Positions 4,060-9,380 of a stretch of DNA of 40,775 nucleotides are shown here, piece after piece. The notes beneath the pieces are model-generated. The model ran no database searches, was not told the DNA's origin, and saw only the letters and a program-made list of their open reading frames with translations. Source of the stretch: a bacterium (GTDB lineage: Bacteria; Patescibacteriota; Patescibacteriia; JACQRZ01); contig JAHFJA010000001.1 of assembly GCA_023246095.1 (NCBI GenBank), positions 66,865-107,639 of the forward strand, in the 5' to 3' direction. Both the position numbers and the translations under genes were made by a program. How positions within the stretch are numbered: position 1 is the stretch's first letter; the number at the start of each line of letters is the position of its first letter.

Positions 4060-4899
4060 TTACTCGTCTTCATGCTTTTTAGGGCGTCCTCGCTTCTTTT
4101 TGCTTTCATCTTCGTCGTCTTCCCCTTCCTCGAGAGGGTTTTCTGGTGTAAATGTCGCCTCGACCTCTTCTACTGCCTCCTGAGCGTCTTCTGGTAGGTC
4201 TGTCCGGCTGACTCCCGGAGCAAGAATCATTTTAAACTGATCAATAAGGATCTGAGCGCTCTGTTCCACTGCTTCTTTGGCAGTGATGCTCCCATCAGTC
4301 TCGACCGTCAAAATGACGCGGTTAAAGTTTGTCATCTGTCCCACACGTGCATTCTCAACATGTAGCGATACATTTCGGACAGGAGTAAAAGTCGCATCAA
4401 CGAGTATAGTGCCAACTTCAGGCTTTTCTCCCTCATGCATTTCTGTGGAAAAGTATCCACGACCGCGACGAATAGTGAGTTCCATTTCAACCTGTGCATT
4501 CTTGTTTGTCATTGTACAAATATGCGCATTTGGAGTAGAAACCTCTACTTCGTGAGTACCTTCAATGTCAGCACCCGTGACCGCCTTCTCTCCTTTTGCC
4601 CTGAGCATCACTTTAACAGGTTCATCAGTATGGATGTTGAATTTTAAACTTTTAAGATTGAGAATGATGTCAACGACATCTTCCTCAACGTATGGCAATG
4701 TTGAAAACTCATGATCGGCACCCTTGATCTTAACGGCAATGACCGCACCGCCTGATAAAGACGAGAGAAGAACGCGGCGAAGTGCATTTCCAATAGTAAG
4801 ACCATACCCTGAATACAGAGGTTCAATTGCGACGATCATCTCATTGTCTTTACTGCCGGCTTTGTAGTCAACGCGCATCGGCAATAAAATATGTTCCAT
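4060..4899 (-). CDS. rpoA: RNA polymerase alpha subunit lacking the standard C-terminal domain
   Basis: Alpha subunit of RNA polymerase, 279 residues. The N-terminal assembly domain is intact: EPLYSGYGLTIGNALRRVLLSSL (about 27-48), KGADHEFSTLPYVEEDVVDIILNLK (59-83), and the helix KEAVEQSAQILIDQFKMIL (208-226). After residue 228 the protein has no helix-hairpin-helix alpha-CTD; instead an acidic linker (about 235-266) ends in KKKRGRPKKHEDE (267-279), with an AT-hook-like RGRP core at 270-273. E. coli alpha has 329 residues with the CTD at about 249-329. The start at 4899 (MEHILLP) is chosen over a longer one at 4938 that overlaps rpsD. It lies between rpsD and rplQ as usual. Confidence 0.96.
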   Translation of the reverse strand: MEHILLPMRVDYKAGSKDNEMIVAIEPLYSGYGLTIGNALRRVLLSSLSGGAVIAVKIKGADHEFSTLPYVEEDVVDIILNLKSLKFNIHTDEPVKVMLRAKGEKAVTGADIEGTHEVEVSTPNAHICTMTNKNAQVEMELTIRRGRGYFSTEMHEGEKPEVGTILVDATFTPVRNVSLHVENARVGQMTNFNRVILTVETDGSITAKEAVEQSAQILIDQFKMILAPGVSRTDLPEDAQEAVEEVEATFTPENPLEEGEDDEDESKKKRGRPKKHEDE

Positions 4900-4918: not shown

Positions 4919-5554
4919 TTATCGTGAGTAAAACTCAATGATTGCTTTCATGTCAAAAATCCCCTGCACTGCTTCTTCGGTCTTTGGAGCATCAACAACT
5001 TTTGCAGAGTAAGCTCCTTGTTCCATAGTTGCCCAAGAAGGAAGCTGCTTTCCTGAAAGCGAAGGAAGAAGTGTTTCGAAATAGCTATACTTCTCACTGC
5101 GTGGTTTAAGAGTGATAACACTCCCTGGTTTCACGTGAAAGGAAGGAATGTTTACTTTCTTGCCATCAACACGGAAATAACCATGACCGACGAATTGACG
5201 TGCCTGAGCGTGAGAATTTGCCCATCCAAGACGGTAAATCACATTATCAAGACGCATTTCCAAAAACTGAATCATAATATCAGCCGTATTACCCTCTTTG
5301 CTGTTAGCGCGTGAAAAATAATTTGAAAACTGCGTTTCAGAAACACCATAAAACTGCTTTGCTTTCTGCTTTTCGCGCAATTGAATACCGTAACCAGTCA
5401 AACGGGGCTTAGAATTCTTTGCTCCTGCCTGTCCTGGTGGATAATTGCGTCGCACGATGGCACACTTTGTAGTATAACAACGTTCCCCTTTTATGAAGAG
5501 TTTCATGCCTGCTCGGCGACACATGCGACATTTTGGTCCAAGAACTTTTGCCAT
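4919..5554 (-). CDS. rpsD: 30S ribosomal protein S4 (zinc-binding form)
   Basis: Ribosomal protein S4, 211 residues, a primary 16S rRNA binder. The N-terminus has a four-cysteine zinc site, C9-x2-C12 and C26-x4-C31, as in the C-plus forms of S4. This is followed by RRNYPPGQAG, the REKQKAKQFYGVSE block, and the S4 RNA-binding domain (RLDNVIYRLGWANSHAQARQFVGHGY, about 108-133). The C-terminus ends with the usual FYSR. The ATG lies 6 bp after rpsK. AAGGA occurs 12-16 bp upstream but overlaps the end of rpsK, so it is doubtful as a ribosome binding site. Confidence 0.97.
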   Translation of the reverse strand: MAKVLGPKCRMCRRAGMKLFIKGERCYTTKCAIVRRNYPPGQAGAKNSKPRLTGYGIQLREKQKAKQFYGVSETQFSNYFSRANSKEGNTADIMIQFLEMRLDNVIYRLGWANSHAQARQFVGHGYFRVDGKKVNIPSFHVKPGSVITLKPRSEKYSYFETLLPSLSGKQLPSWATMEQGAYSAKVVDAPKTEEAVQGIFDMKAIIEFYSR

Positions 5555-7164: not shown

Positions 7165-7845
7165 TTATTCTTTTAGAGCAAAAATGTATGTTTGATCCAA
7201 ACAACTATTTTTACGATCTTTATCACAACACCAACGATTGGTTTCCAGAGCTGTTCCATTATCCCATACTGCCCCGAGCCAATAATTATAGTGCATTATC
7301 TCCAACAAATATGGCGATTTCGAATCACTGGTTATTGGTTCACTAACTACATTATACCCGTCCATCGCTTCTTTCAAATCCGCATGACATTGGCGTAATA
7401 ACTGGATCCCTGTTTCCTGAGGACATAATGCTAAACCGCACTCATCCGCATTTCTACATAGATCTTCGTGTGTCCAATATTCTTCCAATCCTAATTGTTT
7501 TGGCTGAATCCGAACGAGTTTAATATCTTTTTCTACTGGACTAAGAGAAATATGAGATTTTTTAATAATTTCTCTTTGTTCTTCCTTCAGATACCAATTC
7601 GTTTTTTTGAATGTTGGAATTTCATCTACTAACAAACTGAGATCGCTATGAGTACCGATCTCAATACTTTTCCAGACGTTCCAGGTTGGAATAACGTCGC
7701 CCTTACTTATGCGTAGTAATCCTGCATAAGCTTGTGCGTATGTCATCTCACCGTTTTCAATCTTTTCAACCAATTTATTTACTGAGCCATATAATGACCC
7801 TGTTTTATTATTAGGCAACACTACCTTCGTTTCTGTTTTACTCAC
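7165..7845 (-). CDS. Protein of unknown function, paralogue of the C-terminal half of its neighbour
   Basis: A 226-residue soluble protein with no signal peptide or membrane segment; I do not recognise a named domain. It aligns along its whole length with residues about 210-430 of the next gene upstream. Shared landmarks in order: KIENGEMTY, WNVWKSIEIGTHSDLS against WGVWKTITLGTHKSLN, ISLSPVEKDIKLVRI against IPISPIETKLKLIRV, LGLEE, ADECGLALCPQETGIQLLRQ against ADELGLMPIPAEGALQLLKQ, and the identical end FALKE. I recall similar GTH and LCPxExGxQL motifs in many hypothetical proteins from Patescibacteria, but cannot confirm that here. The start is GTG at 7845, fixed by AGGAGG eight bases upstream. 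It follows its paralogue by 31 bp and is probably co-transcribed. Confidence 0.8.
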   Translation of the reverse strand: MSKTETKVVLPNNKTGSLYGSVNKLVEKIENGEMTYAQAYAGLLRISKGDVIPTWNVWKSIEIGTHSDLSLLVDEIPTFKKTNWYLKEEQREIIKKSHISLSPVEKDIKLVRIQPKQLGLEEYWTHEDLCRNADECGLALCPQETGIQLLRQCHADLKEAMDGYNVVSEPITSDSKSPYLLEIMHYNYWLGAVWDNGTALETNRWCCDKDRKNSCLDQTYIFALKE

Positions 7846-7876: not shown

Positions 7877-9169
7877 TTATTCTTTCAATGCAAAAATCAA
7901 TGCTGGATATCCATTTGTTGCGCTATGGAAAGTTCCACTCAAACTATCCCACTCTAAACGCATATGCCTCTCGGTGGTGTTCCAATACTTTTTTTCAGCC
8001 TCAATACCAAATATATACGTACTATTTGGAAACTCTTTCCGGAGTGGAAGCGGTTCTATAGCAATTCGTCTAGCACTGTCTCCTTCAGTATAAATGCCGT
8101 ACTGCTTTAGTAACTGAAGCGCTCCCTCAGCAGGAATGGGCATTAAACCAAGTTCGTCCGCATGTCTGTATATATCTTCCTCGTCATATATTGATTCCTT
8201 TAATCCGAGCTCAATTCCGTTCACTCTGATAAGCTTCAGCTTAGTTTCTATCGGACTAATGGGGATGCCTATGTCTCTAATTCGTTCTTTTAGCTCTTCA
8301 TCAATGCCGGCGCCATCACGTGATTTACTTACCGGAAGATCATCTAACAGTTCATTGAGGCTTTTATGTGTCCCCAGTGTGATTGTTTTCCATACCCCCC
8401 ATCTCGGTTTAACTTTATCTGCAAGCAATAACTGTAAACCGCGGTTGACTTTTTCAAAAGTCATTTCTCCGCCGTCTATCTTATTTCTGAAATCATCAAT
8501 GATTTCATATAGAGCTCCTAGCTCGTAATTTGAAATTGCTGTTTTTTTAATGACAGGAGCAGGCTTATCATCATCCTTAGAAGGAGTGATTTTTTCCATT
8601 AAAGGTTTAACGGACTCATCGCTGACGTCAATCGTTTCTTCATTTTCTTTCTCAACAATCTGTCCGTCTTGAGAATCTGTCTGAACTTTTTTAGTACGCC
8701 CAAAAACACAGCCGTTTATCCACTCAACTACTTTCTGTACTTTACTCATCTGTTCAAAAGAGTCTAATTCTTTTTGGTCGTAAATTCCCGACTTGGCTAA
8801 CAAAGATATACATGACCTGTCGAACAAAGACTCATCACCTGTGATACCCATTGTCGGACGATTTCCTGTACGTCCTCCTTCTTTAACTGCAAGAGGATAA
8901 TCTTTTCCGTAATATGCCATGTCTGCGTTAATGGCGGCAATAAATTTCTCGTCCCTTTCCAGAACCATTTGGGTAAATTTTTCTGGATCTTCATCTGCGA
9001 ACTTTATACCAGCATACAATTGCTCGCCTCTAACGTTCATATCATCTAATATTTCCAGAACTTTTACGTCGTGGATGAGATGAGTTATGAACATAAGTGC
9101 GCCCATATTGCCATCAACAATCATCACTTTTGCAGTGGCGAGATCGCCGATATTAATGTTTGTTCTCAT
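7877..9169 (-). CDS. Two-domain protein of unknown function
   Basis: A 430-residue soluble protein. The N-terminal part (about 1-160) has DGNMGALMFITHLIHDV, then LEILDDMNVRGEQLYAGIKFADEDPEKFTQMVLERDEKF, which I associate loosely with small conserved proteins having a GNPGA...IRG...YK.VC..D pattern; this is memory, not a search. A charged linker (about 170-205, TDSQDGQIVEKENEE) leads to a C-terminal domain (about 210-430) that is the paralogue of the downstream 226-residue protein. GGAGA lies 8 bp before the ATG, and a near-consensus promoter lies about 100 bp upstream. No catalytic motif is visible. Together the pair looks like one domain used twice, once alone and once fused. Confidence 0.8.
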   Translation of the reverse strand: MRTNINIGDLATAKVMIVDGNMGALMFITHLIHDVKVLEILDDMNVRGEQLYAGIKFADEDPEKFTQMVLERDEKFIAAINADMAYYGKDYPLAVKEGGRTGNRPTMGITGDESLFDRSCISLLAKSGIYDQKELDSFEQMSKVQKVVEWINGCVFGRTKKVQTDSQDGQIVEKENEETIDVSDESVKPLMEKITPSKDDDKPAPVIKKTAISNYELGALYEIIDDFRNKIDGGEMTFEKVNRGLQLLLADKVKPRWGVWKTITLGTHKSLNELLDDLPVSKSRDGAGIDEELKERIRDIGIPISPIETKLKLIRVNGIELGLKESIYDEEDIYRHADELGLMPIPAEGALQLLKQYGIYTEGDSARRIAIEPLPLRKEFPNSTYIFGIEAEKKYWNTTERHMRLEWDSLSGTFHSATNGYPALIFALKE

Positions 9170-9306: not shown

Positions 9307-9325
9307 TGGTCAGTTAGATATACTT

Positions 9326-9380
9326 TTCCTTATAAATATAAGCATTCTATCTATTTAGACTATTTCCTTGTAAATATAAG
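9326..9380. repeat. Two 17-bp direct repeats with palindromic cores
   Basis: TTCCTTATAAATATAAG (9326-9342) and TTCCTTGTAAATATAAG (9364-9380) differ at one base and are 38 bp apart. The core of the first is a palindrome, CTTATA-AA-TATAAG; the second has one mismatch. They lie 20-75 bp upstream of the -35 box of the paralogous pair, a usual place for operator or activator sites. Confidence 0.6.

Follow-up and report, generated by a model that had tools for sequence, protein, structure and literature searches.

Transcription activation in bacteria has one of its main targets in the C-terminal domain of the alpha subunit of RNA polymerase (alpha-CTD), which also reads UP elements. This domain reads the A/T minor groove, and so do AT-hooks, the DNA-gripping elements of animal HMGA proteins. 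The rpoA gene of the window (the whole stretch of DNA that was analysed, 40,775 nucleotides) encodes an alpha subunit that has lost this domain and carries near its C-terminus the peptide KKKRGRPKK, which contains the RGRP core of AT-hooks. The initial annotation proposed that one minor-groove reader had been swapped for another. The locus thus raises the question of which part of the work of the alpha-CTD, if any, such a tail could do.

The rpoA gene (positions 4060-4899, minus strand) encodes a protein of 279 amino acids that matches TIGR02027 with 240.6 bits (cut-off 227.8). It lies in a minus-strand ribosomal-protein block, rpsM-rpsK-rpsD-rpoA-rplQ, having rplQ and rpsD as neighbours as elsewhere in bacteria; the conserved order rpsK-rpsD-rpoA-rplQ, together with PF01193 and PF01000 matches far above cut-off, supports its identity. 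The reading frame, with its 3' end at 4060, is open from a TTG at 4938 that overlaps rpsD, however, ATG 4899 is the likely start because a matching M[EQ].I..P opens all family RpoAs. The N-terminal domain (NTD, residues 1-226, 4222-4899, minus strand) comprises both Pfam domains, has pLDDT values mostly >90 and ends with its last helix at residue 226. It is followed by an acidic, disordered and fast-evolving linker (residues 227-266, 4102-4221, minus strand) with pLDDT 41-59 over most of its length and 15 D/E versus 1 K/R in the 32 residues scored. The AT-hook-like motif occupies residues 267-275 (4075-4101, minus strand), its RGRP core being encoded by the codons CGA GGA CGC CCT at 4092-4081 (minus strand), where the initial annotation had placed it. 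The terminal HEDE (4063-4074, minus strand) is shared with the sister species of the genus alone.

The Pfam scan of RpoA returned both NTD domains, no alpha-CTD and only a sub-threshold AT_hook. The alpha-CTD model PF03118 had zero matches in the assembly (all 40 contigs, 985,568 bases; completeness 94.8%), while the same search matched in 9 of 14 named genomes used as a control. The AlphaFold2 model, built with 29 class sequences, is confident to residue 226, shows a low-confidence helix at 237-250 and is disordered beyond; pLDDT is <50 at residues 251-271, therefore the tail hides no folded domain. The absence of PF03118 and of any folded domain after residue 250 rules out a hidden alpha-CTD in RpoA or elsewhere in the assembly, which disposes of a separate CTD gene, named at the outset as a finding that would overturn the proposal. 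In two sister genomes of the family an alpha-CTD-like domain is found in ORFs of ~200-310 amino acids devoid of the RpoA NTD (L054 in G003 and L090 in G008).

The loss of the alpha-CTD is a class-level trait, dating to the root of the class or before it, because the class RpoAs read do not match PF03118 while 306 sampled Patescibacteria outside the class do. Over the phylum, 313 of 380 genomes have matches, 7 of them within this class, and among the matches listed most are ORFs of ~310-340 amino acids, the size of a complete RpoA. In the same family and class, 9 of 95 relatives had a PF03118 match. Those matches that were inspected fall outside RpoA, two in sigma-70 region 4 proteins and the others in small or unrelated ORFs; among the class RpoAs read, none carries the domain. 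The named relatives without CTD include Uhrbacteria, Kerfeldbacteria, Falkowbacteria and Kuenenbacteria, known as GTDB class ABY1, and one member of the window's own family (G007) and a Ca. Uhrbacteria assembly have identical RpoA tails. The sampled Yanofskybacteria and Azambacteria also lack the CTD. Loss of the domain has already been published for Parcubacteria (PMC8321222); the main text of Nelson and Stegen 2015, cited there beside that statement, does not mention rpoA.

The loss implies that classical CTD-dependent activation is missing on RpoA, as had been anticipated. In two genomes of the class (G011 and G016), whose RpoAs are likewise without CTD, the domain sits on a sigma-like protein instead: separate proteins join sigma-70 region 4 to a C-terminal alpha-CTD (L051 and L053, with Pfam E 7e-15 and 3e-21; 4e-21 and 3e-20). 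Such fusions, absent from the window's genome, are a possible detour for CTD-dependent activation.

Close relatives keep RGRP, which excludes the random lysine-rich tail that the initial annotation had set against its own reading. All 10 family RpoAs compared end in KK[R/K]GRP[K/R]K with 2-4 residues after the motif, and the preceding linker varies in length and is unalignable across the family. The order K-R-G-R-P-K-K is retained in these ten members with one R-to-K and one K-to-R change. Codon comparison over the eight residues of the motif gave pN 0.069 and pS 0.908, hence pN/pS 0.076, as against 0.254 for the NTD and 0.722 for the linker; this low ratio at a pS of 0.91 means that the amino acids are held while the codons drift. 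Among the 214 eight-codon windows of the NTD, just 7 reach the conservation of the motif. The motif is clearly under selection.

The motif is also restricted to RpoA. The DNA pattern for K[RK]GRP[KR]K matches exactly once per genome, always in rpoA, in nine family genomes; the tenth (G002) spells one motif arginine CGC and was for that reason missed by the pattern. Across all 57 genomes searched the pattern gave 17 matches, 12 of them in rpoA, and a reversed control pattern gave ~11 scattered matches. We rejected on these counts the possibility that the tail is a generic one, common in these genomes. Among the matches outside rpoA are two of KRGRP[KR]K in the ribosomal protein S9 ORF of class members G051 and G021, within an N-terminal extension before the conserved part.

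To the class at large the motif extends unevenly. We sampled 125 RpoAs with differing NTDs, 100 of them without CTD. Among the latter, [RK]GRP[KR]K is present in 28, always 1-7 residues from the C-terminus, where shuffling the last 25 residues of each, which preserves composition, predicts 0.015 cases. On the NTD tree the tail state needs 12 changes (shuffled labels: mean 24.7, never <17); this tree, made from a single protein, is compatible with an ancestral hook followed by frequent losses or with several gains. The motif follows the tree in blocks: the whole family has it, as do both Kuenenbacteria and the greater part of a Falkowbacteria-like clade, and outside these it is scattered. Sister tails read KKKRGKAKK, are runs of lysine or contain nothing basic, and 38 of the sampled RpoAs have lysine-rich tails without RGRP. 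The existence of class members with lysine tails or no basic tail shows that the motif is not obligatory after CTD loss.

How far the tail resembles a true AT-hook depends on the yardstick. The Pfam AT_hook model (PF02178, 13 positions) aligns to residues 267-278 with 15.9 bits, below its 17.4 cut-off, and matches only 4 of 29 relatives at E <= 1. The tail has the RGRP core in a basic context, and its layout, an acidic segment and then RGRP, is that of CarD and HMGA, in one copy rather than several. The hallmark by which AT-hook proteins are known is RGRP flanked by lysines together with an acidic segment (PMC4374960). The CarD_CdnL_TRCF RNA polymerase-interacting domain was not found in RpoA by the Pfam scan, which returned RpoA domains only.

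The swap as first proposed predicts A/T tracts upstream of -35 boxes. Near-consensus promoters were aligned on their -35 boxes; the DNA covered was ~440 kb from the own genome, sets of 180-220 kb from further hook genomes, from relatives without the tail and from CTD-bearing Patescibacteria, and 200 kb from Escherichia coli. The power of this comparison is low, CTD-bearing controls showing a small enrichment and E. coli yielding only 3 near-consensus promoters. In the own genome there are 53 sense as against 11 antisense promoters, so that the sense set is mostly real. Within the limits of this low-power test, the 53 sense promoters have an A/T content of 0.610 over the 22 bases that precede the -35 versus 0.625 in intergenic DNA, and A/T tracts, likewise, are not enriched there (0.32 versus 0.33). 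The other family genomes also show no A/T enrichment at this place; the distant hook genome, the tail-less genomes and the CTD genomes show a slight one. Only the rrn promoters show a weak trend in the predicted direction: there the A/T difference upstream of -35 is +0.094 in hook genomes and +0.022 and -0.035 in the others (one-sided p = 0.057, n = 20). A fixed UP-like site at ordinary promoters is not supported.

The core elements of these promoters are strong. The own genome has 46 combinations of TTGACN with an extended -10 where local shuffles predict 3.4, as compared to 1 versus 1.2 expected in the 200 kb of E. coli. The excess over shuffles is 9-16x in hook-bearing genomes (G000, G006, G002 and G051), 2-8x in other sampled Patescibacteria and nil in the E. 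coli sample. Such elements in the own genome fit recognition by sigma alone; since genomes with a CTD and those without the tail are also enriched, mostly less so, the excess is not bound up with the hook.

Three near-consensus promoters share the sequence ATTTATRAGGAAA ~20-30 bases upstream of the -35 (window 9325-9337, minus strand; G000:C17:43052-43064, minus strand; G000:C23:22747-22759, plus strand). In the window a near copy is found another ~45 bases upstream. The sequence may mark a site for a regulator. Upstream of the -35 of several class 16S rRNA promoters we observed TGTGGATA or TGTGGATT, which resemble part of the DnaA box. Two adjoining genes of the window (7165-7845 and 7877-9169, minus strand) encode paralogous proteins with 39% identity over 148 amino acids.

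We propose, giving the proposal about an even chance, that the RpoA tail may be a selected, non-positional DNA anchor on the polymerase that replaces only the DNA-holding role of the alpha-CTD. With the helix-hairpin-helix domain lost, the C-terminus would have become a flexible acidic linker bearing a single AT-hook-like peptide, and the two alpha subunits would furnish each polymerase with two hooks, each on a linker of ~40 residues. These hooks would most likely insert into the minor groove where DNA beside the polymerase contains A/T, and would thereby raise the affinity of the enzyme for, or its residence on, promoter-region DNA, with neither a fixed position nor a strict sequence. DNA-holding would be taken over in this manner, unlike the site-specific reading of UP elements and the contact with activators. 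DNA binding, minor-groove contact and an effect on transcription are what we infer for the tail, and an anchor comparable to the polymerase-tethered hooks of CarD and WhiB7 is the best explanation. The wider reading, to which we give somewhat less than an even chance, is that the class dropped the alpha-CTD and that several lineages, this family included, have kept or re-evolved an AT-hook on alpha, an HMGA-type minor-groove binder within a core polymerase subunit that would act as a non-positional anchor on promoters or DNA beside near-consensus promoters. An anchoring role for the hook is weakened by the promoters of the own and the other family genomes, which are not A/T-enriched ahead of the -35, by the sub-threshold AT_hook score with its few matching members, and by the many CTD-less relatives with plain lysine or non-basic tails.

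The main rival is that charge alone matters: the tail would be a general polybasic anchor for nucleic acid, RGRP being one well-kept basic end, and its charge would hold the polymerase on any DNA, on nascent RNA or on the ribosome, irrespective of A/T preference. The 38 lysine-rich tails without RGRP, which include those of CTD-less Yanofskybacteria-like lineages, agree with this, as does the absence of an A/T positional signal at promoters. Nevertheless, an anchor working by charge alone would have no need of Gly-Arg-Pro, the exact K-R-G-R-P-K-K is kept throughout the family and recurs in distant clades, and composition falls far short of predicting the 28 cases seen; we consider this rival unlikely, although it deserves serious weight. 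A like-for-like swap, in which the AT-hook would recognise A/T-rich UP elements in a fixed position upstream of the -35, we judge improbable. It would accord with the established affinity of both the alpha-CTD and the AT-hook for the A/T minor groove and with the slightly A/T-richer rrn promoters of hook genomes, but in the own genome, albeit in a weak test, neither A/T nor tracts are enriched upstream of -35 at the 53 near-consensus promoters. What stands of the initial proposal is the loss of the CTD and its succession by a conserved AT-hook-like tail after an acidic linker, a tail that recurs elsewhere in the class; what does not stand is like-for-like UP-element reading. Just as improbable is a motif that does not bind nucleic acid but is modified or docks a partner protein. 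Disordered tails often carry short linear motifs to such ends; however, no candidate partner is known, and lysine-flanked RGRP with an acidic segment is the AT-hook hallmark cited above. A tail left over from CTD loss and evolving neutrally, as genome reduction, the class members without a basic tail and the loss reported in Hodgkinia and Tremblaya with no replacement described (PMC8321222) might suggest, is highly improbable and, for the family, already refuted by the contrast in pN/pS between motif and adjoining linker.

Should the anchor prove true, a core RNA polymerase subunit would have a built-in minor-groove binder of the HMGA type. A lineage devoid of the CTD but endowed with a selected AT-hook-like tail lets one ask which job of the domain is indispensable, the holding of DNA, the reading of sites or the contact with activators, and bears on gene regulation in the reduced genomes of Patescibacteria, of which little is known so far.

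The tail shares with the alpha-CTD (PF03118) its C-terminal place and its flexible linker from the alpha NTD, and hypothetically the A/T minor-groove contact, however, it amounts to ~9 residues in place of a helix-hairpin-helix of ~60, has no similarity to it in sequence or fold and offers no activator surface. The CTD-less RpoAs of Parcubacteria, Hodgkinia, Tremblaya and Euglena chloroplasts have undergone the same loss, and the part of PMC8321222 that covers them does not describe an AT-hook tail. We found no report that joins RpoA and the AT-hook in the literature searched (bioRxiv and most subscription journals lay outside the search). The closest precedents are hooks tethered to the polymerase by other proteins. 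Mycobacterial WhiB7 binds the sigma subunit of RNA polymerase, and its C-terminal AT-hook binds an A/T-rich motif next to the -35 (PMC3905903); the tail of RpoA is similarly a C-terminal hook held on the polymerase, whereas WhiB7 is a regulon-specific iron-sulfur activator whose target promoters have that A/T motif, none being seen here. In Myxococcus CarD, which attaches to the beta subunit, the HMGA-like end is disordered and has an acidic segment with RGRP hooks after it (PMC4374960), the same make-up as in RpoA; CarD, however, is a separate factor with four hooks, while RpoA has a single one within alpha itself. HMGA proteins likewise combine an RGRP core in a basic context with a segment that is acidic and disordered, but they bear three hooks and are bound to chromatin, whereas the hook of RpoA is part of the polymerase.
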